Assembly: GCF_900636535.1 (NCBI RefSeq)
Contig: NZ_LR134289.1
Location: forward strand, 496,001 to 560,000
Length of the DNA stretch: 64,000 nucleotides
Reading direction: 5' to 3'
Source of the DNA: Chryseobacterium gleum
Lineage (GTDB): Bacteria; Bacteroidota; Bacteroidia; Flavobacteriales; Weeksellaceae
This document shows positions 23,675 to 35,192 of the stretch, piece after piece (positions within the stretch are counted from its first letter, which is position 1; each line of letters starts with the position of its first letter). A program made the position numbers and the translations under genes. The notes below the pieces were generated by a model, which saw nothing but the letters and a program-made list of their open reading frames with translations, made no database searches and was not told the DNA's origin.

Positions 23675-24217
23675 ATGAAAAACCAAATCTTTATCGCTGC
23701 ACTGTCTCTGGGAGCAATCGCCCTGGGAACCAAATGGGTTAAGGCACAAAATTCGGAGCAGTTGAGTACAACGGTCAATATTATTTTATCGGATGTTATT
23801 GCAATGGATATTGGCTCTGTTGCTTCAGAAGGTGCTGTAGATTTTAACTATGGGAGCACAAAAGATTATAATTCTTCTAAAAATATAACCGTTCCCAATA
23901 GTTTAGTCATTATTTCCTCTAAAAATTTTGATGTTAAAGTAAAATCTGAAGGTGCACACTTTGTAAGTGGCGCAAATGTAATCCCTGTAGATGTATTGCA
24001 GGTAAAAGCAGTACCAGGAGGAAGTCTTATGGGAACTCTGAATGAGGTCACTTTATCTACAATGGACCAGGTGCTGGTGAGTAATGCAAGTTTAGGCTCC
24101 AAACAGTCTTTAAATATTGCCTATTCTATTTCGGCGGAAAAAGCATCCAAGGTACTTCTTGGAAAACCGCAGGGAACTTACACTCAAAAAATAACGTATA
24201 CCGCGACTGCTTTATAA
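23675..24217 (+). CDS. Secreted fimbrial-type subunit, divergent paralogue (subunit 1)
   Basis: A 180-residue exported protein (signal peptide about residues 1-25, ending KAQ). The mature part is beta-rich and has no cysteines. It shares the whole plan of the five subunits downstream: an N-terminal alternating strand STTVNIILSDVIAMDIGS, VDFNYGSTKDYN, SSKNFDVKVKS, and the C-terminal GKPQGTYTQKITYTATAL. It differs at roughly half its positions from the others. I recognise no named family. By context with the chaperone and barrel genes it is a candidate pilus subunit, perhaps a minor or adaptor one. Confidence 0.7.
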   Translation: MKNQIFIAALSLGAIALGTKWVKAQNSEQLSTTVNIILSDVIAMDIGSVASEGAVDFNYGSTKDYNSSKNITVPNSLVIISSKNFDVKVKSEGAHFVSGANVIPVDVLQVKAVPGGSLMGTLNEVTLSTMDQVLVSNASLGSKQSLNIAYSISAEKASKVLLGKPQGTYTQKITYTATAL

Positions 24218-24240
24218 TAAAACGAAAAGCAATTGTATAT

Positions 24241-24280
24241 AAGCCCTCAGTACTTCCACAGTACTGAGGGCTTTTCTTTT
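24241..24280 (+). terminator. Terminator after subunit 1
   Basis: AAGCCCTCAGTAC (24241-24253) with GTACTGAGGGCTT (24261-24273), followed by T-rich sequence. Near-identical stems recur at 25127 and 26016. Confidence 0.88.
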
Positions 24281-24300
24281 TAAATCAGATGAACCAACCG

Positions 24301-24374
24301 TGTAGTGATTTTACTACATGAACTTCCTTTTTCCACTACAAAGAAACTTTTATCACCGCTGTAGATTTGTAGTG
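24301..24374 (+). promoter_or_regulatory. Subunit 2 promoter with nested inverted repeats
   Basis: TGTAGT/ACTACA (24301-24306, 24313-24318) forms a first dyad. CACTACAAA (24334-24342) and TTTGTAGTG (24366-24374) form a perfect 9-bp inverted repeat overlapping the -7 box TAGATTTG (24362-24369). The arrangement suggests an operator controlling the promoter. Confidence 0.7.
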
Positions 24375-24425
24375 TTCAAAAGGAACAATTAAATAAAATA
24401 AAAATAACAATTAAATATTACAGCC

Positions 24426-24971
24426 ATGACAAAGCAAATCTTAATCTCAGCCTTAACTTTTGGAGCAATTATATTTGGAACTAATAATGTTCAAGCTCAA
24501 AATACCACTGCAACCACAACGGTAAACATTACCCTGAACGATGTAATCTCTATTGACGCAGGAAGTACTGCAATAGGTAATACAGTTGATTTTAACTATG
24601 TTACTGCAGCAGACTATAATTCTGACCAAACAGTTACTAAAGCCAATTCTTTAAAAGTTACTTCTACAAAGAACTTTAATGTAAAGGTAAAAGCAGGAGG
24701 TGCTAATTTTATGAATGGAACGAACCTGATTCCTGTGAATGTTTTAACAATCAAACCTTCTACTGCTGCTGGAAGTATGGGAGGAACAAAGACCGCTGTA
24801 GTGTTATCTGCAACAGATCAGACTTTGGTATCCAATGCTCCGCTTGGAAGTGCCTTAACACTGAATTTAGATTATACAATTCCAGCGGCAAAATCATCAT
24901 CATCTGATATTTTAGGTAAGCCAGCCGGAACGTATACGCAGACAGTAACTTATACTGCAACAGCTTTATAA
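24426..24971 (+). CDS. Secreted fimbrial-type subunit (subunit 2)
   Basis: A 181-residue exported protein: signal peptide 1-25 (ending VQAQ), then a 156-residue cysteine-free beta protein. The mature N-terminus TTATTTVNITLNDVISID alternates polar and hydrophobic residues like a donor strand, and the C-terminus TYTQTVTYTATAL looks like a final edge strand. The protein is identical to subunit 6 and differs by one residue from subunit 3. It has its own promoter, operator and terminators, typical of a very highly expressed structural protein. The family is unnamed to me; the pilin role is inferred from the neighbouring chaperone, barrel and tip genes. Confidence 0.75.
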   Translation: MTKQILISALTFGAIIFGTNNVQAQNTTATTTVNITLNDVISIDAGSTAIGNTVDFNYVTAADYNSDQTVTKANSLKVTSTKNFNVKVKAGGANFMNGTNLIPVNVLTIKPSTAAGSMGGTKTAVVLSATDQTLVSNAPLGSALTLNLDYTIPAAKSSSSDILGKPAGTYTQTVTYTATAL

Positions 24972-25011
24972 ATAAATTTTTCATATTAATATTTTGTGAT
25001 TTGGTGTTTCG

Positions 25012-25040
25012 AAGGCTTCCTACGGGAGGCCTTTGATTTT
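25012..25040 (+). terminator. First terminator after subunit 2
   Basis: AAGGCTTCC (25012-25020), loop TACG, GGAGGCCTT (25025-25033), then TTTGATTTTT. It is duplicated after subunit 3. Confidence 0.75.
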
Positions 25041-25126
25041 TATGTATTGATATCGTTATAGAGAAATTCAAAATTCGGGAATAGATATTTGTCAGCTGTG
25101 AGGTAGAATCAGGAATTTATATAAGC

Positions 25127-25164
25127 CCTCAGTACTTCCAAAGTACTGAGGACTTTTCTTTTTA
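25127..25164 (+). terminator. Second terminator after subunit 2
   Basis: CCTCAGTACTT and AAGTACTGAGG (25127-25137, 25141-25151) followed by a T-rich run. Tandem terminators separate subunits 2 and 3. Confidence 0.75.
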
Positions 25165-25182
25165 AATCAGATGAACCGGCCG

Positions 25183-25256
25183 TGTAGTGATTTTACTACA
25201 TGAACTTCCTTTTTCCACTACAAAGAAACTTTTATCACCGCTGTAGATTTGTAGTG
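25183..25256 (+). promoter_or_regulatory. Subunit 3 promoter with nested inverted repeats
   Basis: The same block as before subunit 2: CACTACAAA (25216-25224), TTTGTAGTG (25248-25256), -7 box TAGATTTG (25244-25251), preceded by the TGTAGT/ACTACA dyad. Confidence 0.7.
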
Positions 25257-25307
25257 TTCAAAGAGAACAATTAAATAAAATAAAAATAACAATTAAATAT
25301 TACAGCC

Positions 25308-25853
25308 ATGACAAAGCAAATCTTAATTTCAGCCTTAACTTTTGGAGCAATCATATTTGGAACTAATAATGTTCAAGCTCAAAATACCACTGCAACCACA
25401 ACGGTAAACATCACCCTGAATGATGTAATCTCTATTGATGCAGGAAGTACAGCAATAGGTAATACAGTTGACTTTAACTACGTTACTGCAGCAGACTATA
25501 ATTCTGACCAAACGGTTACTAAAGCCAACTCTTTAAAAGTTACTTCCACAAAGAACTTTAATGTGAAAGTAAAAGCAGGAGGTGCTAATTTTATGAATGG
25601 AACCAACCTGATTCCTGTGAATGTTTTAACAATCAAACCTTCTACCGTTGCCGGAAGTATGGGAGGAACAAAAACTGCTGTAGTATTATCTGCAACAGAT
25701 CAGACTTTAGTATCCAATGCTCCGCTTGGAAGTGCATTAACACTGAATTTAGACTATACTATTCCAGCAGCGAAATCATCATCTTCTGATATTTTAGGTA
25801 AGCCAGCCGGAACGTATACGCAGACAGTAACTTATACCGCAACAGCTTTATAA
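25308..25853 (+). CDS. Secreted fimbrial-type subunit (subunit 3)
   Basis: A 181-residue paralogue differing from subunits 2 and 6 only by Ala114 to Val in the protein, while the DNA carries many silent differences. This pattern indicates strong purifying selection or repeated gene conversion rather than a duplication made yesterday. Signal peptide 1-25, no cysteines, the same putative donor strand and C-terminal strand. The 3' flank duplicates that of subunit 2, including both terminators, so the repeat unit is about 0.88 kb. Confidence 0.75.
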   Translation: MTKQILISALTFGAIIFGTNNVQAQNTTATTTVNITLNDVISIDAGSTAIGNTVDFNYVTAADYNSDQTVTKANSLKVTSTKNFNVKVKAGGANFMNGTNLIPVNVLTIKPSTVAGSMGGTKTAVVLSATDQTLVSNAPLGSALTLNLDYTIPAAKSSSSDILGKPAGTYTQTVTYTATAL

Positions 25854-25893
25854 ATAAATTTTTCATATTAATATTTTGTGATTTGGTGTTTCG

Positions 25894-25922
25894 AAGGCTT
25901 CCTACGGGAGGCCTTTGATTTT
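25894..25922 (+). terminator. First terminator after subunit 3
   Basis: A copy of the 25012 terminator: AAGGCTTCC, TACG loop, GGAGGCCTT. Confidence 0.75.
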
Positions 25923-26015
25923 GTATGTATTGATATCGTTATAGAGAAATTCAAAATCCGGGAATAAGTATCTGTCAGCTGTGAGGTAGAATCTATGTTG
26001 TACAGGAATTTATAT

Positions 26016-26056
26016 AAGCCCTCAGTAGTTCCAAAGTACTGAGGGCTTTTCTTTTT
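26016..26056 (+). terminator. Second terminator after subunit 3
   Basis: AAGCCCTCAGTA (26016-26027) with TACTGAGGGCTT (26037-26048) and a T-rich tail. Confidence 0.8.
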
Positions 26057-26075
26057 AAATCAGATGAACCGACCG

Positions 26076-26149
26076 TGTAGTGATTTTACTACATGAACTT
26101 CCTTTTTCCACTACAAAGAAACTTTTATCACCGCTGTAGATTTGTAGTG
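26076..26149 (+). promoter_or_regulatory. Subunit 4 promoter with nested inverted repeats
   Basis: CACTACAAA (26109-26117), TTTGTAGTG (26141-26149) and -7 box TAGATTTG (26137-26144), preceded by the TGTAGT/ACTACA dyad as for subunits 2 and 3. Confidence 0.7.
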
Positions 26150-26200
26150 TTCAAAAGGAACAATTAAATAAAATAAAAATAACAATTAAATATTACAGCC

Positions 26201-26746
26201 ATGACAAAGCAAATCTTAATCTCAGTCTTAACTTTTGGAGCAATCATATTAGGAACTAATAATGTTCAAGCTCAAAACACCACTGCAACCACAACGGTAA
26301 ACATCACTCTGAATGATGTAATCTCTATTGATGCAGGAAGTACTGCAATAGGTAATACAGTTGACTTTAACTATGTTACTGCAGCAGACTATAATTCTGA
26401 TCAAACAGTTACTAAAGCCAACTCTTTAAAAGTTACTTCTACAAAGAACTTTAATGTAAAGGTAAAAGCAGGGGGTGCTAATTTCATGAATGGAACGAAC
26501 CTGATTCCTGTGAATGTTTTAACAATCAAACCTTCTACTGCTGCCGGAAGCATGGGTGGAACAAAAACCGCTGTAGTATTATCTGCAACAGATCAGACTT
26601 TGGTAGCTAATGCTCCACTTGGAAGTGCATTAACACTGAATTTAGACTATACTATTCCAGCAGCGAAATCATCATCATCTGATATTTTGGGTAAGCCAGC
26701 CGGAACTTATACGCAGACAGTAACTTATACCGCGACGGCTTTGTAG
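26201..26746 (+). CDS. Secreted fimbrial-type subunit (subunit 4)
   Basis: A 181-residue paralogue with three substitutions against subunit 2 (Ala9Val and Phe17Leu in the signal peptide, Ser136Ala in the mature part). The mature protein is therefore almost the same building block. It has the full operator/promoter block upstream but no terminator after it: subunit 5 starts only 64 bases later, so subunits 4 and 5 may share a transcript. Confidence 0.75.
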   Translation: MTKQILISVLTFGAIILGTNNVQAQNTTATTTVNITLNDVISIDAGSTAIGNTVDFNYVTAADYNSDQTVTKANSLKVTSTKNFNVKVKAGGANFMNGTNLIPVNVLTIKPSTAAGSMGGTKTAVVLSATDQTLVANAPLGSALTLNLDYTIPAAKSSSSDILGKPAGTYTQTVTYTATAL

Positions 26747-26752
26747 TAGCTG

Positions 26753-26760
26753 TAGATTTG
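26753..26760 (+). promoter_or_regulatory. -7 element before subunit 5
   Basis: TAGATTTG followed by TAATG. The upstream dyads present at subunits 2-4 are missing because the subunit 4 stop codon lies directly before it. Confidence 0.5.
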
Positions 26761-26810
26761 TAATGTTCAAAAGAGAACATTAAATAGAATAACAATTAAA
26801 TAGTACTATC

Positions 26811-27356
26811 ATGATAAAACAAATCGCAATCTCAGCCTTAACTATTGGAGCAATCATAGTAGGAACCAATAATGTTAAAGCCCAAAATACCACCGCAACC
26901 ACAAACGTAAATATTACCCTGAATGATGTAATATCTATCGACGCAGGAAGTGCTGCAATTGGTGGTACAGTTGCCTTTAACTATGTTACAGCCGCAGACT
27001 ATAATTCTGATCAAACGGTTACTAAAGCCAACTCTTTAAAAGTTACTTCCACAAAGAACTTTAATGTGAAAGTAAAAGCAGGGGGACCGAATTTCATCAA
27101 TGGTTCAAACTCAATCCCTGTAGATGTTTTGACAATCAAAGCTGCAGAAGCTCCTGGAAGTATGGGAGGAACAAAGACGGCTGTAGTGTTATCTGCAACA
27201 GATCAAACTTTGGTATCCAATGCTCCGCTTGGAAGTGCATTAACACTGAATTTAGACTACACCATTCCAGCAGCGAGATCATCATCATCTGATATTTTAG
27301 GAAAGCCGGCCGGAACGTATACACAAACAGTAACTTATACTGCCACTGCTTTATAA
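26811..27356 (+). CDS. Secreted fimbrial-type subunit, variant (subunit 5)
   Basis: A 181-residue paralogue more distant than subunits 2, 3, 4 and 6: changes include Lys23, Asn32, a G-T-V-A for N-T-V-D block near residue 52, PNFINGSNSIPVD, and KAAEAPG in place of KPSTAAG. The putative donor strand VNITLNDVISID and the C-terminal strand are unchanged, so assembly surfaces seem conserved while the middle loops vary. It probably provides an alternative or minor subunit. It may be read through from subunit 4. Confidence 0.72.
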   Translation: MIKQIAISALTIGAIIVGTNNVKAQNTTATTNVNITLNDVISIDAGSAAIGGTVAFNYVTAADYNSDQTVTKANSLKVTSTKNFNVKVKAGGPNFINGSNSIPVDVLTIKAAEAPGSMGGTKTAVVLSATDQTLVSNAPLGSALTLNLDYTIPAARSSSSDILGKPAGTYTQTVTYTATAL

Positions 27357-27380
27357 TAAAAAAACACATCAATATATCTG

Positions 27381-27413
27381 CCCTCAAGACTTCCAGGTAT
27401 TGAGGGTTTTTCT
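27381..27413 (+). terminator. Terminator after subunit 5
   Basis: CCCTCAA (27381-27387) and TTGAGGG (27400-27406) followed by TTTTTCT; a degenerate version of the other subunit terminators. Confidence 0.65.
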
Positions 27414-27433
27414 ATGTAAGCCGATGAGCAATC

Positions 27434-27508
27434 CTGTAGTGATTTTACTACATGAACTTCCTTTTTTCACTACAAAGAAACTTTGATCGCCACTATAAAT
27501 TTGCAGTA
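27434..27508 (+). promoter_or_regulatory. Subunit 6 promoter, degenerate operator
   Basis: The TGTAGT/ACTACA dyad and CACTACAAA arm are kept, but the second arm is TTTGCAGTA instead of TTTGTAGTG. The -7 box is TAAATTTG (27496-27503). Regulation of this copy may therefore differ. Confidence 0.6.
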
Positions 27509-27555
27509 TACAAAAGAGAATAATTAAATAAAAATAACAATTAAATATTACAGCC

Positions 27556-28101
27556 ATGACAAAGCAAATCTTAATCTCAGCCTTAACTTTTGGAGCAATC
27601 ATATTTGGAACTAATAATGTTCAAGCTCAAAATACCACTGCAACTACAACGGTAAACATTACCCTGAACGATGTAATTTCTATTGATGCAGGAAGTACTG
27701 CAATAGGTAATACAGTTGACTTTAACTACGTTACTGCAGCAGACTATAATTCTGATCAAACGGTTACTAAAGCCAACTCTTTAAAAGTTACTTCTACAAA
27801 GAACTTTAATGTAAAGGTAAAAGCAGGAGGTGCTAATTTTATGAATGGAACCAACCTGATTCCTGTGAATGTTTTAACAATCAAACCTTCTACTGCTGCC
27901 GGAAGTATGGGAGGAACAAAGACCGCTGTAGTGCTATCTGCAACAGATCAGACTTTAGTATCTAATGCTCCACTTGGAAGTGCATTAACATTGAATTTAG
28001 ACTATACTATTCCAGCAGCGAAATCATCATCTTCTGATATTTTAGGAAAACCGGCCGGAACGTATACGCAGACAGTAACTTATACCGCGACGGCTTTATA
28101 A
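27556..28101 (+). CDS. Secreted fimbrial-type subunit (subunit 6)
   Basis: A 181-residue protein identical in sequence to subunit 2 although the DNA differs at silent sites and the two genes are 3 kb apart. That identity is best explained by selection or gene conversion. It is the last subunit and lies 80 bases before the chaperone gene. The hairpin in that gap has no T tract, so some transcripts may continue into the chaperone, barrel and tip genes. Confidence 0.75.
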   Translation: MTKQILISALTFGAIIFGTNNVQAQNTTATTTVNITLNDVISIDAGSTAIGNTVDFNYVTAADYNSDQTVTKANSLKVTSTKNFNVKVKAGGANFMNGTNLIPVNVLTIKPSTAAGSMGGTKTAVVLSATDQTLVSNAPLGSALTLNLDYTIPAAKSSSSDILGKPAGTYTQTVTYTATAL

Positions 28102-28114
28102 TAAAATTTTTAGT

Positions 28115-28135
28115 TTGTAAAGGTTCCTTTTACAA
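28115..28135 (+). other. Hairpin without T tract between subunit 6 and chaperone gene
   Basis: TTGTAAA(G) pairs with (T)TTTACAA (28115-28122 with 28128-28135) but no run of T follows. It could act as a leaky terminator or mRNA-processing hairpin, setting a high subunit to low assembly-machinery ratio. Confidence 0.45.
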
Positions 28136-28181
28136 TGTTTTCAGTAGTTTTGGGAATCTTTATTATTAAACTATTTACACC

Positions 28182-28982
28182 ATGCACAAGTTTATTCACC
28201 TTTTCATTTTCTTTATTCTCACAGGATCTTCTTCACTTCTGGCACAAAGCATCTCTATGTCGCCTACACGCTTGTTTTTTACAGGTAATCCGGGAGAAAA
28301 AGTAACAAAGACAGTCACGCTTCAAAACAGCTCAGATAAGGATTATGTTTTTAATCTCAACTATAAAGACTGGTATAGAGAAGAAGACGGAAATAAGGTT
28401 TATCTTGAGGCAGGCAGTTCAAAAACTTCCAATGCTTCCTGGGTATCCACCTTAGAAAATACTGTAACTGTTCCTGCAAAAAGTACAAAGGAGATTGCAG
28501 TAACCATGCAGATTCCTGCAAATGCATCACCATCTGCCGTTACAAACAGCATGCTGTTTTTTACCCAGCTTCCTCAGCAGGCAGATAAGGCACGTGTTCA
28601 GAATGGAATTGGTATTATCACCTTATTTGAAGTGGGACTTCATATCTTTTACACTCCACCGGGGAACCATGTGAAAAGTCTGGATATTACCAATATTGCA
28701 GAGGTAAGTAATCAGAATGCAGCGAACAGAAAAGTCGCAGTAAGCATCCATAATGATGGAAACACAATCAATGATGCCACTGTTGAGGTTGAACTTACCA
28801 ACACAGACAATGGGAAGGAAATAAAATTACCCGCAATTTCAATCTCTATGTTTCCGGATACCAATCAGGTTGTTCAATTTTCTTTACCAGAGAATATTTC
28901 AGGAAACTTCCTGGGTGTGGCTATTATTAAAATGGCAGAATCCAATGATTTACGTGTAGGAGAAAAAAACTTTAAATTTTAA
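28182..28982 (+). CDS. PapD-like periplasmic chaperone of the fimbrial-type locus
   Basis: A 266-residue exported protein (signal peptide about 1-22, ending LLAQ). Residues 23-145 look like PapD domain 1: SISMSPTRLFFTGNPGEKVTKTVTLQNSS, with an Arg in the position of the pilin-binding Arg8, then VPAKSTKEIAVTMQIP and a parallel G1-like strand SMLFFTQLPQQ. Residues 150-266 form a second Ig-like domain. Similar proteins accompany fimbrial ushers and also unrelated surface systems. Eight bases separate it from the barrel gene. By inference it folds the tandem subunits and delivers them to the barrel. Confidence 0.7.
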   Translation: MHKFIHLFIFFILTGSSSLLAQSISMSPTRLFFTGNPGEKVTKTVTLQNSSDKDYVFNLNYKDWYREEDGNKVYLEAGSSKTSNASWVSTLENTVTVPAKSTKEIAVTMQIPANASPSAVTNSMLFFTQLPQQADKARVQNGIGIITLFEVGLHIFYTPPGNHVKSLDITNIAEVSNQNAANRKVAVSIHNDGNTINDATVEVELTNTDNGKEIKLPAISISMFPDTNQVVQFSLPENISGNFLGVAIIKMAESNDLRVGEKNFKF

Positions 28983-28991
28983 AATTAAGCC

Positions 28992-31796
28992 TTGAAACCA
29001 CAGAATGGAATATCGATATCAGTGCTAAGAAGAACAATCTTATTTTTTGTATTTGTTCTTCTGCACTTTTCGTTGGCCTTTGCGCAGGAAAATAAGAATA
29101 TCAGCATCCATTTTGAAAATGACAGCGTAGCTGTTGAAAAAGGTTCAACATTTACTAATTTCCTGGTCGTTGAGAATAAAAGTTCTGAAGAGATTACCAT
29201 TCAGAATATCATACCTCAGGAAAACTATCCGGGATTGCTTTTCTATCCCAAAAATGAATTAACCTTAGGCGCAGGTCAGTCTAAAACTCTTCCGGTAAAA
29301 CTGATTGCCAATGTGGATTTTATGAAACTGAAATCCAATAAGATCCAATTCCAGGTTTCTTACGTTACCCCAACCGTCACCAGAAGTGAAAACGCCTCGT
29401 TCTTCGTTGCTAAAGGAGACAACAAAAACATCGCAATTTATACAGCGACATACGAAAATTTCATTAACCCCGCTTTACCACAGTCCTCCATTCTGCTTAC
29501 TGTAGAAAACCAGGGTTACAGTAAACGAACCGTTAAGATTGATTTGCAATCCATTCCGGATGGTTTGGAAGTAATGCCAAAACAACAGACTGTATCTCTG
29601 GAAGGTTTAGAAAAACAAACGTTGGAAATCAAAATTGCGGTCAGAAAACAGAATACACTTTATCCGGAATTTAATATTAACGCGATCGTAACAGACCTGC
29701 TGGATAATAAAATCGTGGGTAGCAACACGCTTTACTTGGTCGTTTTATCACATAACAGACAAATTGCCCGTGGAAACGAAGCGGTGAGCGGAAGTAATTT
29801 TGCTGAAATGAGCTATAATGAAAACAGCTCAGGTTTCAATTATCTTCAATTGAGAGGAAATACAGCGTTCCGGATAACTGATAACCTTAAATCACGCTTC
29901 AATATTGGTGCAGATTACTATCATGAGGACGGCCGTTATAACTTATATGATACCTGGCTGGAGTTGGAGAGAAAAAATACAGTATTACGGGTGGGTAATG
30001 TTAATAGCAGCGATTACGATTATCCGGTTTTCGGAAGAGGTGGGAAAATTTCTACTAAATTCGGAAATAATAATCAGGTTGAAATTCTTGCGCTTGAAAA
30101 TAATTATAATCTGTATGGTACATATTTCCAGCAAACAGAAGGATCTACCATGGCGGGTGCAAAATATTCTTTTGGCAATGCAAAATCTTTCAATGGGAAA
30201 GTATCCTATATATTTGAGCATGATCCGCGGTTTAATGTAGATACACAGATAGCGGACGCAGTTACATCATTGTTAATTAACGATAAAAACGCAATCCGCA
30301 CAGAGTTAGGCGTAAGTCACGAAAAAGGACTTTTGAATCATGATGAAAACGCCGGAGCTTCAATGGGAGCCAATTACGAAGGGAAAATAGGAAAATGGGA
30401 TCTACAGTCTGTTAATTCCTTTGCCACCAAAAGTTATGCAGGGATCAAACGGGGATCGTTTTTCTCAAATCAGCGTATTGGCCGTCAGTTTTCTGCCTCT
30501 CAGCGTGCTTTTATACAATACCAGAATTCGCAGGTAAATCCTGAGTTCCTGAGCTACCAGGGCGCTCCTGTCCAATCTGGGAATACTGCAGATTTACGCT
30601 ATTATTTCAACAGTACAGAATCTTTGGGATTAGGGTATCAGTTTTCTTTAAAGAAATGGAATTTTCTACTGTCTCCAAAAGTTGAGAAACAAAAAACAGC
30701 TAATTTTTATACCTCACAGGAACTTTTCTCTTACCGGTTGGAAGCCAATATCAGTACTACTTTAGGAGCCCATGGATTGAACCTGACGGCGGAATATTCT
30801 TATTCTAAAGAGAATAATAACCCGGACTGGTTCAACAGTCTGAAAACTACTTTATCTTACAGATATAAGTCATTCTCTCTCAACGGAACAGCCCAATGGA
30901 ATGCAACCAGTGTCTTTGATTTGAATTCTTATTATGATGTAAGCCGTAATTTCGCCAATTACAATGTATACGCTTCTTATAATTTCCAGATGTTTAATCA
31001 TAATCTTACTGGATCTTTTTCAGCAGGAACCTTCTATTCGGAGCTTTATAAAAATTTAAACAGCAATATCACCGGTAATCTGGAGTATAAGATTTCACCT
31101 TCCTGGTCCACCACAGGGTATTTTAATCTTTCTGGCTATAAATCTACAGCTGAATATTCAACAAGTGGCAGTTATTACCAGTTCAGAGTGGGGATTAAAA
31201 AATATTTTACCCCGGCTACTGCTTTCGGAAATCATAAAGTGGCATTCCAGTTCTTTGAAGATAAAAATTCTGATGGACTTCTGGAGTCCGGTGAACCGGT
31301 ACTTGCTAATGAAATTATAAAACTGGACAATTATGTAGCGATGACTGATAAGAATGGAAAAGTGGTTTTTCAGAATGTGCCTGAAGGTACTTACACTCTG
31401 AAGGTGAATGAAAGTGCGGGTGCCCGGTTGATGATGGATCCTGTCATTATGGTCCATAACAATATTAACCGCAAAGTGGGCTTGGTAAAAAACATCAGGG
31501 TAAGCGGAAAATTAACAGAGATCAAACAAGCCTATGATGTTTTGGAAACGGATGTGACAGGAATAGTGGTGTATGCAAAAAGTGAAGATGGCACAATCTA
31601 TACTGCCGTGGTTAACCAGAAAAATGAGTTTGAATTTTTCCTGAAAGCCGGAAAGTATAACCTCTATATTGAAAATGACAAATACAGCTATACACAGCCG
31701 AGCCAAACTATTCAGGTAACAAAAGAAGGTTACTCAAAAACCGTGGTTTTTGAATATAAGAAGAAAGACACCACCATTAAGGTGAAAAAGTTTTAA
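28992..31796 (+). CDS. Usher-like outer-membrane barrel protein
   Basis: A 934-residue protein with a signal peptide (about 1-32, ending AFAQ). Residues 33-265 hold two Ig-like modules (VEKGSTFTNFLVVENKSSEE; SILLTVENQGYSKRTVKI). Residues 270-745 are a long series of amphipathic aromatic strands typical of an outer-membrane barrel. Residues 750-840 are an SdrD-B/CarboxypepD-like domain (FFEDKNSDGLLESGEPV, VVFQNVPEGTYTLKV), and 845-934 another such domain. N-terminal domain, barrel and two C-terminal Ig-like domains parallel the usher plan, but I see no classical usher signature. A secretion-pore role is inferred. Confidence 0.65.
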   Translation: MKPQNGISISVLRRTILFFVFVLLHFSLAFAQENKNISIHFENDSVAVEKGSTFTNFLVVENKSSEEITIQNIIPQENYPGLLFYPKNELTLGAGQSKTLPVKLIANVDFMKLKSNKIQFQVSYVTPTVTRSENASFFVAKGDNKNIAIYTATYENFINPALPQSSILLTVENQGYSKRTVKIDLQSIPDGLEVMPKQQTVSLEGLEKQTLEIKIAVRKQNTLYPEFNINAIVTDLLDNKIVGSNTLYLVVLSHNRQIARGNEAVSGSNFAEMSYNENSSGFNYLQLRGNTAFRITDNLKSRFNIGADYYHEDGRYNLYDTWLELERKNTVLRVGNVNSSDYDYPVFGRGGKISTKFGNNNQVEILALENNYNLYGTYFQQTEGSTMAGAKYSFGNAKSFNGKVSYIFEHDPRFNVDTQIADAVTSLLINDKNAIRTELGVSHEKGLLNHDENAGASMGANYEGKIGKWDLQSVNSFATKSYAGIKRGSFFSNQRIGRQFSASQRAFIQYQNSQVNPEFLSYQGAPVQSGNTADLRYYFNSTESLGLGYQFSLKKWNFLLSPKVEKQKTANFYTSQELFSYRLEANISTTLGAHGLNLTAEYSYSKENNNPDWFNSLKTTLSYRYKSFSLNGTAQWNATSVFDLNSYYDVSRNFANYNVYASYNFQMFNHNLTGSFSAGTFYSELYKNLNSNITGNLEYKISPSWSTTGYFNLSGYKSTAEYSTSGSYYQFRVGIKKYFTPATAFGNHKVAFQFFEDKNSDGLLESGEPVLANEIIKLDNYVAMTDKNGKVVFQNVPEGTYTLKVNESAGARLMMDPVIMVHNNINRKVGLVKNIRVSGKLTEIKQAYDVLETDVTGIVVYAKSEDGTIYTAVVNQKNEFEFFLKAGKYNLYIENDKYSYTQPSQTIQVTKEGYSKTVVFEYKKKDTTIKVKKF

Positions 31797-31806
31797 ATTT
31801 AAAAGT

Positions 31807-33240
31807 ATGAAAAAGATGAGGGTTTTTCTAATAGGAATTTTTACCGTGTTCTGCGGGTCTGCATTCATGAAAGCTCAGGATGTGTACCTGTCTGTTCCTG
31901 AAAATAATATTTTTAACAGGAGCGAATTTACCTCAGTACCTACAAGGGTAATGACTAATGCCAACAGAACAAACTGGGATTATGCCTTTTTGGGATTACT
32001 GCCCACAGCTCCTACATTTACCTCTGTTTCCGGATCAACTTTTACTCACTCTTCTTCCTCATCTACTTTACCCGGATCCACTCTTCTGTGGCAGTTGGAA
32101 AGTATGGGCGGGCAGCTTCCATCTACCGGACTTTCCGGGTATTTGCCAGGTTTTCAATCATTCAGTACAAGCGCTATAAAATGGTTTGAACCGCCATCCA
32201 TCAGTATCGGGGGAGGATTCAACCGCGGAAATATCAATTTTACATTTAAAATTCCTGCCGCACAATTTACTGCCAATGCTTTCCGGGCCGGGAATTATTC
32301 TATGGACATTACTCAGAATTATAATGATTTCACTCCCCGTAATTTTAAAACAATTTTAGTGATTCCTTCATCGATACGATGGATTACAAGCTCTTTAACA
32401 AAATACATAGAAATATCTTCTTTGAATGACTACCGCAATACAAACATGAAGGTATGGGATTTGGGGAATACAGAAATCGCGAATACGGTTGATTTTAATT
32501 TTTTAGCCAAAGCTGCTTCCGCAAACATTCAGTTCACTTCCTCTAAAGGGGTTGCAGGAACCAGAAATATAGCAAGCATTAAACTGGGTAGCAATGGATC
32601 TGCACTCACAACCAAAGCTTTATCTGCCGATTTTCAGAATTTTTCTGCTGCTAATTTCAGTGTTACAGCAGGAAACAGAAACAGCTTCATTCCGCAGCTT
32701 TATGTATCTGCGGAAGATTTTAAAAACTTTTTTTTTGAAGCCGGAACTTATACTTTTGAATTGAACTTCAATGCAGGAAGTACAGATAACTCTATTAACA
32801 GTTTGCAGAATACGGCTGTTCAGTTGAAGGTGCTTCCTCTGTCGGAAATTACCATTCCAAGTTCTGGACGCACTGTCAACTTCAATTTTAATACCGCATC
32901 CCAATACACCGATGGACAGTCGCAAATGATTCCCAACCAGATTATGCTGTCCAACAATGAAAATTTTGAGCTGTATGTAAAATCGGACGAAAATTATTTT
33001 AAGAAAGGCGGCCTGCAGACCGACATCAATTCGAACATTTTACAAATTGGAGTGGATGGAGGTTCTGTAAATGTACCCTTATCCAAAACTCCCCAAAAAA
33101 TACTTTTTAACGGAGCACCGGTTCTGGACCGTGGACTGAATATAAGATACACCATACCACCTGCAGGCGCCCAAAGTTTGGTAGGGAAGGAGAATACCAC
33201 TTACTCTGTCAATGTGTATTATAGCTTTACGGCAATTTAA
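31807..33240 (+). CDS. Candidate tip adhesin with C-terminal subunit-like domain
   Basis: A 477-residue exported protein (signal peptide about 1-23). Residues 24-185 are Ser/Thr/Pro/Gly-rich and unlike the subunits. Residues 190-335 include IANTVDFNFL, recalling the subunit IGNTVDFNYV. Residues 340-477 align with the subunits along their length: VNFNFNTASQYTDGQ, MLSNNENFELYVKSD, LNIRYTIPPAGAQSLVGKENTTYSVNVYYSFTAI. A pilin-like domain behind an adhesive N-terminal region is how two-domain tip adhesins are built. It is the last gene of the chaperone-barrel-tip run (10-base gap). Confidence 0.65.
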   Translation: MKKMRVFLIGIFTVFCGSAFMKAQDVYLSVPENNIFNRSEFTSVPTRVMTNANRTNWDYAFLGLLPTAPTFTSVSGSTFTHSSSSSTLPGSTLLWQLESMGGQLPSTGLSGYLPGFQSFSTSAIKWFEPPSISIGGGFNRGNINFTFKIPAAQFTANAFRAGNYSMDITQNYNDFTPRNFKTILVIPSSIRWITSSLTKYIEISSLNDYRNTNMKVWDLGNTEIANTVDFNFLAKAASANIQFTSSKGVAGTRNIASIKLGSNGSALTTKALSADFQNFSAANFSVTAGNRNSFIPQLYVSAEDFKNFFFEAGTYTFELNFNAGSTDNSINSLQNTAVQLKVLPLSEITIPSSGRTVNFNFNTASQYTDGQSQMIPNQIMLSNNENFELYVKSDENYFKKGGLQTDINSNILQIGVDGGSVNVPLSKTPQKILFNGAPVLDRGLNIRYTIPPAGAQSLVGKENTTYSVNVYYSFTAI

Positions 33241-33813: not shown

Positions 33814-34548
33814 ATGAATGATTTTATCAACGAACTACAATTAAAAATTGAAAGACTGGAAAATGAGATCAATTTCAAGAACGGACTGATTTCGATATTG
33901 TCTCATGACTCAAAAGAACTGTTTGGAACTTTTCTGTGGCTTATAGAAGAACTAGAGCAGAAAAACATAAGTGAGGAAGATTTTTTTAAGCTGTTGCCGC
34001 AGATAAAAAAAGATGCCCGCAAGAATCTGCAAACTATCCAGGACAGCGTTGCATGGCTGAAAACGCAATACGGGGAATTTAAGATTAAACCCGTTACCAT
34101 TATGGTAATAGATCTTTTTCATTATTTAGAAGAAAAATACGCTGTTAAATTAAAAGAAAAAAACATTCAATTTTATTTTAAAGGAGACCACAATGCCTTT
34201 CTCACAAGTGACCGACTGTTGCTTGAATATGTTCTGGACAAGATTTTTAACAATGCGGTAAAATATTCTTTTCCGGGGCAGGAGGTTTGTTTACAGGTAA
34301 TTACGGAGGGTGACCAGGTTGTGCTTTCTGTAATTGATTCCGGAACAGGAATAAATGAAAAGTACTTACCTATGATCTACACGTATGGTAACCCTGTATT
34401 TCTGGGAACTGCAGGCGAGAAAGGAGTGGGATTAAGTTTGAAAATTGTAAAAAATTTTATATCCTTGCTGCATGGAAACATCCAAATCATTTCCGATGAA
34501 GATAAAGGTACTACGGTTTCCCTTTTTTTACATAAATTTTTAGAATAA
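33814..34548 (+). CDS. Cytoplasmic sensor histidine kinase
   Basis: A 244-residue kinase without membrane segments or a recognisable sensor domain. A coiled-coil start (residues 1-25) leads to the H-box LISILSHDSKELFG with the phospho-accepting His near residue 31. The N-box is DKIFNNAVKYS, G1 is VIDSGTGI, and G2 is GEKGVGLSLKIVKNF. It is short, so it must sense a cytoplasmic signal or partner. It overlaps the response regulator by one base (TAATG) and lies directly behind the fimbrial-type operon, which makes that operon a likely target. Confidence 0.85.
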   Translation: MNDFINELQLKIERLENEINFKNGLISILSHDSKELFGTFLWLIEELEQKNISEEDFFKLLPQIKKDARKNLQTIQDSVAWLKTQYGEFKIKPVTIMVIDLFHYLEEKYAVKLKEKNIQFYFKGDHNAFLTSDRLLLEYVLDKIFNNAVKYSFPGQEVCLQVITEGDQVVLSVIDSGTGINEKYLPMIYTYGNPVFLGTAGEKGVGLSLKIVKNFISLLHGNIQIISDEDKGTTVSLFLHKFLE

Positions 34549-35192
34549 TGGGTTTAAAAGCAGACATTCGTATTGTAGTAGCAGATGATCATGGTATCGT
34601 CCGGATGGGTTTAATACAAACAATCAAACGATTAATGCCCGATGCCATCATTTCAGAAGTAGAGGACTATAAATCGTTGTACAAATTAATTCTGAATGAA
34701 AAACCGGATCTGGCCATTATGGATGTTAATATGCCTAATGGTACTGTTCAGGAAGCAATAGATTACATAAAGGTTCACCAACCTGAATTAAAAATTTTAA
34801 TATTTTCTTCACAGGATGAAGAGTTATATGGGATGCGTTATCTCAAAATGGGCGCTGGCGGCTATTTGAGCAAGCTAAGCTCTACTGAAGTCATTGAGAC
34901 TGCTTTAACGTCCATGCTCAATAAAGGGCGATATGTCAGTGATAATATAAAAGATGCTATTTTTTTAGAATCATTAACTGGTGCAGCAAAAAATTCTCCC
35001 CTTGAAGCGCTATCAGACCGCGAATTGCAAATTGCGAATAAGCTTGCAGAAGGTCTTCCGCTTAAAGAAATTTCTAATCTGCTGAATCTTCATTCATCAA
35101 CGATAAGCACTTACAAAAACAGGTTGTTTGAGAAACTTAAAATACGGTCTATACCTGAATTGGTAGAGATTCTCAGGCTGTATAATCATTAA
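34548..35192 (+). CDS. LuxR-family (NarL-type) response regulator
   Basis: A 214-residue regulator: receiver at residues 5-125 with phospho-acceptor Asp in LAIMDVNMP (about residue 60), and a C-terminal LuxR HTH (LSDRELQIANKLAEGLPLKEISNLLNLHSSTISTYKNRLFEKL). It is translationally coupled to the kinase. The repeated TGTAGTG/CACTACA dyads before the fimbrial-type subunit genes are plausible binding sites, since NarL-type regulators bind short inverted repeats; this link is inferred from position only. Confidence 0.9.
   Translation: MGLKADIRIVVADDHGIVRMGLIQTIKRLMPDAIISEVEDYKSLYKLILNEKPDLAIMDVNMPNGTVQEAIDYIKVHQPELKILIFSSQDEELYGMRYLKMGAGGYLSKLSSTEVIETALTSMLNKGRYVSDNIKDAIFLESLTGAAKNSPLEALSDRELQIANKLAEGLPLKEISNLLNLHSSTISTYKNRLFEKLKIRSIPELVEILRLYNH

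Follow-up and report, generated by a model that had tools for sequence, protein, structure and literature searches.

A probable divergent chaperone-usher pathway in Chryseobacterium gleum and the kinship of its chaperone with PapD-type and WxLIP proteins

Background

Type V (FimA/Mfa) pili and the type IX secretion system (T9SS) are the usual surface systems of Bacteroidota, and surface fibres in this phylum are discussed as their products. The present study concerns a locus within a 64,000-nucleotide stretch of the Chryseobacterium gleum genome (RefSeq assembly GCF_900636535.1, contig NZ_LR134289.1, positions 496,001 to 560,000 of the forward strand), hereafter called the window, to which all coordinates refer. 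The locus encodes, on the + strand throughout, six secreted subunits, a chaperone with two immunoglobulin-like (Ig) domains, a 934-amino-acid barrel protein and a 477-amino-acid tip-like protein. We consider it probable that these genes form a divergent chaperone-usher pathway of Bacteroidota, building donor-strand fibres; no published description of the system was found in the literature searched.

Several described systems come close. Classical chaperone-usher pili (Fim, Pap) share with the window the gene types and their order, a two-Ig chaperone that is PapD-type by profile and a two-domain tip, and their usher is the best fold match of the window barrel. They differ in that the window barrel is unrelated to theirs in sequence, has 26 predicted strands, lacks a plug and carries a chaperone-like N-terminal module, and the window subunits lie outside known pilin families. 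Type V pili, which resemble the proposed product in being surface fibres of Bacteroidota, have no family match in the window.

A further close relative is the Gram-positive WxL/WxLIP cluster (PF06030, PF11797; PDB IDs 9i25 and 9i1y). According to PMC10599100, these clusters combine a small WxL protein, a large protein with a terminal WxL domain and WxLIP. WxLIP consists of two perpendicular Ig-like domains and has a strand that, in AlphaFold prediction, fits into a gap in WxL; "donor strand" is not among the terms used in the part of the source consulted. The window chaperone is homologous to WxLIP in both domains, and the pairing of a small subunit with a large protein bearing a C-terminal subunit-like domain is common to both systems. 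Absence of Trp from the mature subunits, absence of a C-terminal transmembrane helix from the chaperone and an additional outer-membrane barrel set the window apart.

Relationship of the chaperone to PapD-type and WxLIP proteins

A profile of 15 window-type chaperones was compared by hhalign with nine PapD-type chaperones of Escherichia coli K-12, giving E 7.4e-8 over 214 columns that span both domains; the best of 20 column shuffles reached E 0.13 and the reversed profile E 0.18. Stronger matches connect the window-type family with Deinococcus chaperones (E 4.9e-32) and with a WxLIP-type set of five proteins from Streptomyces, Cohnella and Paenibacillus (E 8.9e-18). Because it matches both groups, while the WxLIP-type set compared directly with the K-12 chaperones is not significant (E 0.02), the window-type chaperone family is, by profile comparison, the link joining WxLIP and PapD-type chaperones. 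As read from these alignments, homology of the window chaperone to WxLIP as well as to PapD-type chaperones is the strongest new claim of this work, and homology between WxLIP and the chaperones of chaperone-usher pathways the boldest. An earlier sequence-only reading of the window had offered an "independent" pathway as one option; for the chaperone, homologous by profile to PapD-type chaperones, this is not supported.

When the profile was run against all PDB sequences, EfmWxLIP1 was its sole significant match (9i25, E 7e-9; 9i1y, E 8e-9), aligned across both chaperone domains and followed by a match of E 0.26; entry 9i25 is listed as a WxLIP-WxL complex. In Pfam, the window chaperone matches PF06030 (WxLIP_PGBD) at 29.1 bits against a cut-off of 27.3, and PF11797 (WxLIP_HBD) is not listed for it. 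Over the 15 chaperones WxLIP_PGBD is matched by six, WxLIP_HBD by three and PapD_N (PF00345) by two, the last weakly (best E 0.0025). A weak chaperone match to the BsaA matrix family TIGR04090 was also seen (18.6 bits, cut-off 60).

The G1/linker segment of the chaperone aligns with that of FimC. Arg stands in eight of the 15 chaperones at the position of the FimC cleft Arg, and Lys in five, each also having the Arg, at that of the cleft Lys. The window chaperone ends ...GEKNFKF without a hydrophobic helix, and in the model of a relative's chaperone the last element is a strand.

Genes of the locus and their linkage

The features of the locus are as follows.

23675..24217, +, subunit 1, 180 amino acids, divergent copy
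24241..24273, +, terminator-like hairpin 3' of subunit 1 (pattern match)
24426..24971, +, subunit 2, 181 amino acids
25308..25853, +, subunit 3, 181 amino acids
26201..26746, +, subunit 4, 181 amino acids
26811..27356, +, subunit 5, 181 amino acids
27556..28101, +, subunit 6, 181 amino acids, protein identical to subunit 2
28182..28982, +, two-Ig periplasmic chaperone, homologue of WxLIP and PapD-type chaperones
28992..31796, +, usher-like outer-membrane barrel protein, 934 amino acids, TTG start
29100..29762, +, barrel residues 37-257, two beta-sandwich domains, chaperone/WxLIP-like
29793..31205, +, barrel residues 268-738, 26 predicted strands without plug insert (model)
31230..31760, +, barrel residues 747-923, pair of C-terminal domains with homologues in the bridging ushers (see below)
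31807..33240, +, tip-like protein, 477 amino acids
32857..33237, +, tip C-terminal subunit-like domain (limits approximate)
33814..34548, +, histidine kinase (HATPase_c), usual companion of the locus
34548..35192, +, LuxR-type response regulator, usual companion of the locus

The six secreted subunits, two-Ig chaperone, barrel and larger subunit-ended protein reported by the sequence-only reading were checked in the sequence and are open + strand genes. Of the gaps of 8 and 10 bases given for the last three, the second is right and the first is 9. Beyond that reading, WxLIP emerged as the nearest chaperone relative, two further loci were found in the same genome, and a two-component pair was recognized; the locus probably extends past its earlier limits, taking in this pair to 35192.

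Barrel similarity retrieved 51 loci, which are mostly close relatives and therefore not independent events (44 in Chryseobacterium, two in Flavobacterium, two in metagenome-assembled genomes (MAGs) of Weeksellaceae and one each in Kaistella, Paenimyroides and a Myroides MAG). In 48 of them the chaperone and barrel genes are flanked by a subunit gene upstream and a subunit-like gene downstream; the remaining three (L063, L096, L097) are cut by the upstream contig end. Relatives of the kinase and the regulator are present in 48 and 50 of the 51 extracted stretches, respectively, and the next window gene (35638) in none, 50 of the stretches being long enough. The kinase starts 5-3940 bases past the tip gene (n=47), within 0.8 kb in 31 loci; in the other 16 this distance is 2.0-3.9 kb, so that some insertion is present there. 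Two loci from named Chryseobacterium records (L102, L106) have the barrel split into several frames, possibly through sequencing error or decay.

In a scan of the genus, 73 of 148 genomes contain a barrel match (E<=1e-10), seven of them only a 22-24% identical paralogue. The C. gleum genome itself holds three loci in all. One additional locus comprises a subunit, a chaperone, a tip-like gene and a barrel (22% identical), adjoined by an AraC-like regulator (by eye); the other holds a subunit, a chaperone, a barrel and a further two subunits. Near a second locus of this genome (L006, 26-3397), a long RHS-repeat-like protein with a possibly deaminase-like C-terminus and, after it, small candidate immunity genes were noticed by eye.

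Hairpins similar to that of subunit 1 are listed as pattern matches 3' of subunits 2 and 3, and another was noticed by eye 3' of subunit 5; the pattern search listed none in the interval from the last subunit to the chaperone. Altogether, 16 terminator-like sites were counted in the region, compared with 7.0 (sd 2.5) in shuffles.

Subunits and tip protein

Subunits 2-6 are 86-96% identical to one another in DNA and 88-100% in protein; subunits 2, 3, 4 and 6 share 94-96% DNA identity among themselves and 86-87% with subunit 5. Subunit 1 has 56% protein identity with subunit 2. The tip protein matches the subunit profile at E 3.8e-46, its C-terminal piece itself being among the eight rows of that profile; aligned pairwise, this piece and subunit 1 show 29% identity. 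Tandem subunit genes upstream of the chaperone mostly number three to five (33 of 37 loci with long flanks; range 1-7).

No match to known pilin families was found for the window subunits. Within the clade of the window, 139 of 140 subunits have Gly at position -14, as do 8 of 18 diverse subunits and all ten K-12 pilins; an aromatic penultimate residue occurs in none of the 18 diverse subunits, compared with Tyr or Phe in nine of the ten K-12 pilins. Mature subunits contain no Cys and therefore no lipobox. Apart from a signal sequence, Trp is absent from all six subunits, and no match to PF13731, the WxL domain with its Trp-x-Leu motifs, is listed. The subunit model places an N-terminal strand (residues 8-13, predicted local confidence pLDDT ~48) apart from a surer core of about residues 30 to 150. 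In the subunit-chaperone model the subunit core is good, but domain 1 of the chaperone is not.

Bridging loci with FimD-related ushers

Of 395 genomes scanned across the phylum, four, each belonging to family f24, match the usher family PF00577, and only below its cut-off. In three of them the chaperone match of the profile search adjoins the PF00577 match; the chaperone gene of the fourth (L161) came from a separate search. Eleven loci were taken as a bridging set (L158-L166 of family f24, L174 of f27 and L175 of f43), all with a homologous chaperone immediately upstream of a long usher protein. Their chaperones match the window family at E 3.7e-23 (shuffles 0.044; E 2.6e-22 when compared alongside the Deinococcus and WxLIP-type sets) and the K-12 chaperones more weakly, in the first domain only (E 4.9e-5). 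As a profile, their ushers match seven K-12 ushers over 339 columns (hhalign E 2.3e-8, against 0.17 for the best of 20 shuffles), and the alignment passes through the plug region of FimD. Six of ten bridging subunits match DUF4402 and eight of ten have a penultimate Tyr or Phe. Bridging loci resemble the window in chaperone, gene order and, as a profile, the C-terminal usher domains. They differ from it in the FimD match of their usher, which covers barrel and plug region, and in their DUF4402-type subunits, mostly with penultimate Tyr/Phe. These usher, chaperone and subunit matches suggest that in other genomes the window-type chaperone family works with ushers related to FimD. Upstream of L162, L163, L164 and L166, small proteins (~130-210 and 340-490 amino acids) with an N-terminal hydrophobic stretch recur, perhaps pseudopilin-like by eye.

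The bridging loci bear on the best of the alternative explanations, in which the locus would be a Gram-negative WxL-like system: a WxLIP-type protein would stabilise surface proteins by inserting a strand, and the barrel would secrete single or paired attached adhesins without polymerisation. The chaperone is indeed nearer to WxLIP than to PapD-type proteins by hhalign, WxLIP is its sole significant PDB sequence match, and WxL clusters likewise contain a small WxL protein, a large protein with a WxL end and WxLIP (PMC10599100). Nevertheless, tandem arrays of several small subunit genes would be expected more of a polymer than of a monomer, hhalign found the subunits not significantly similar to the single WxL protein compared (Prob 9.3), and bridging loci pair the chaperone family with FimD-like ushers and DUF4402-type subunits; we regard this alternative as unlikely. 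A Paenibacillus plasmid (L180, 3884-8804) encodes WxLIP, a large protein and a small WxL protein whose ending, GTYKSVFTYTATSGI, resembles the GTYTQTVTYTATAL of the window subunits.

The barrel protein

The AlphaFold model of the barrel contains 26 strands (DSSP), where an usher barrel has 24, and usher-like C-terminal domains. No plug domain is present in it, the longest inter-strand gap being 23 residues, without any domain-sized insert. The sequence-only reading had suggested strand count and plug as a check; the barrel is large, and its usher pore is a candidate one. At the N-terminus a two-Ig module is similar to the chaperone and to WxLIP, and has no match in bridging ushers. In Foldseek, the top eight matches of the model are FimD chains, the best with E 1.6e-16 over 870 columns and the first unrelated row at E 1.1e-11. 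The C-terminal domain pair of the barrel family matches that of the bridging ushers at E 2.9e-13 (shuffles 0.07), and one barrel relative (P0108) is named "fimbria/pilus outer membrane usher protein" by NCBI.

Several points weigh against an usher: Foldseek TM-scores between the barrel and FimD are low, porins tie with FimD as barrel match in VIA-align, and PF00577 does not match the window barrel, whose sequence is unrelated to known ushers. The barrel could thus be imagined as an unrelated transporter of another product, for example a biofilm matrix protein, its usher likeness being convergence; besides the missing sequence relationship and the porin tie, the weak TIGR04090 match of the chaperone would agree with this. 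However, the C-terminal pair is common to the barrel and FimD-related ushers, the gene position is similar, and one chaperone family is found in both locus types, making convergence very improbable. Judged strictly by sequence and model, two features of ushers, PF00577 and the plug, are missing, and the locus is best called a divergent branch of chaperone-usher systems. "Very divergent", the other option of the earlier reading, fits the barrel well, with no PF00577 match, 26 predicted strands, no plug and a chaperone-like N-terminus.

Distribution in Bacteroidota and Deinococcus

Twenty regions were hand-picked from barrel matches across the phylum, some being second loci of one genome; 17 of them also have chaperone and subunit-like genes (E<0.1). 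Together with the 48 of 51 close relatives, this bears out co-occurrence of the four gene types in other genomes, which the earlier reading had proposed to survey. Two of the 17 (L052, L053) have the barrel and chaperone genes on different strands, unlike the other 15. The chaperone profile has matches in 88 of 395 genomes and 37 of 170 genera of the phylum (E<=1e-6), 12 of the 88 genomes having contributed rows to that profile. Among 20 further regions selected by chaperone, the chaperone is followed on the same strand by a gene exceeding 900 codons in 15 (gap at most 348 bases; one intervening gene in L176), and the barrel profile matches 13 of these large genes (E<=0.01), some weakly. Four of the other five regions have no such gene on that strand and one is cut at a contig end. 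In L172 and L173 (family f18), chaperone-like proteins match mostly in their first domain and no same-strand barrel gene is nearby; they are possibly another use of the fold.

By its encoded proteins, a third version of the system is carried by Deinococcus plasmids (L119, L120, L123). Their chaperones score 118-119 bits, and the next or next-but-one large gene hits the N- and C-terminal domains of the usher profile (35-72 bits); they differ from the window in having subunits of other types and a barrel unmatched by sequence. The Deinococcus deserti chaperone (L123, 6899-7669) is annotated as FimB/Mfa2 and matches PF08842 at 21.7 bits (cut-off 21.2), which is likely a mislabel. That a type V pilus or T9SS cargo locus was misread is the least credible explanation: it could draw on this annotation and on two f24 chaperones that match Por_Secre_tail under its cut-off (E 0.003-0.004), but a scan of three of the six subunits together with the chaperone, barrel and tip proteins lists no fimbrillin, Mfa2 or Por secretion-tail family at E<=1, the mature subunits lack the Cys of a lipobox, and the locus has a chaperone and a barrel of its own.

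Proposed mechanism

A divergent chaperone-usher pathway is supported by the computed chaperone homology, by linkage in distant genomes and by the bridging loci, in agreement with the chaperone-usher-type pathway claimed by the sequence-only reading. In such a pathway, subunits and tip would enter the periplasm via Sec. The chaperone (28182-28982) would hold the folded subunit, lending a domain-1 strand, the G..I...[RE].G[IL].[IL][FY] segment ahead of the domain linker, to the subunit groove; we infer this strand donation from homology. The barrel (28992-31796) would take in the complexes and secrete the tip first, and the N-terminal strand of each incoming subunit (TTTVNITLNDVISID) would displace the chaperone strand by donor-strand exchange. 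The expected product is a linear fibre made up of near-identical subunits, with the 477-amino-acid tip protein as its cap. The modelled barrel has no plug; the chaperone-like N-terminal two-Ig module and the C-terminal domains may bring in the complex and control opening of the pore, and the two-component pair may control the locus.

We further propose, tentatively and with slightly more doubt than confidence, that WxLIP and PapD-type chaperones share one two-Ig ancestor and that the Bacteroidota and Deinococcus loci retain the intermediate. On this view WxLIP would act as a chaperone of WxL tethered to the membrane, not as a host-membrane anchor, and the window barrel would be a new usher class, in which a fused chaperone copy replaces the usher N-domain and plug.

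Implications

If the proposed pathway is true, the Bacteroidota chaperone-usher branch is an overlooked class of adhesive fibre, common in Chryseobacterium, found also in several families and carried by plasmids of Deinococcus. Its chaperone links systems treated as unrelated, namely the PapD-type pilus chaperones and WxLIP of enterococci and lactobacilli. Because of this link, the strand insertion of WxLIP into WxL predicted in PMC10599100 and the listed 9i25 complex, the origin of donor-strand complementation becomes testable. Two systems that have been studied apart may have one part in common.
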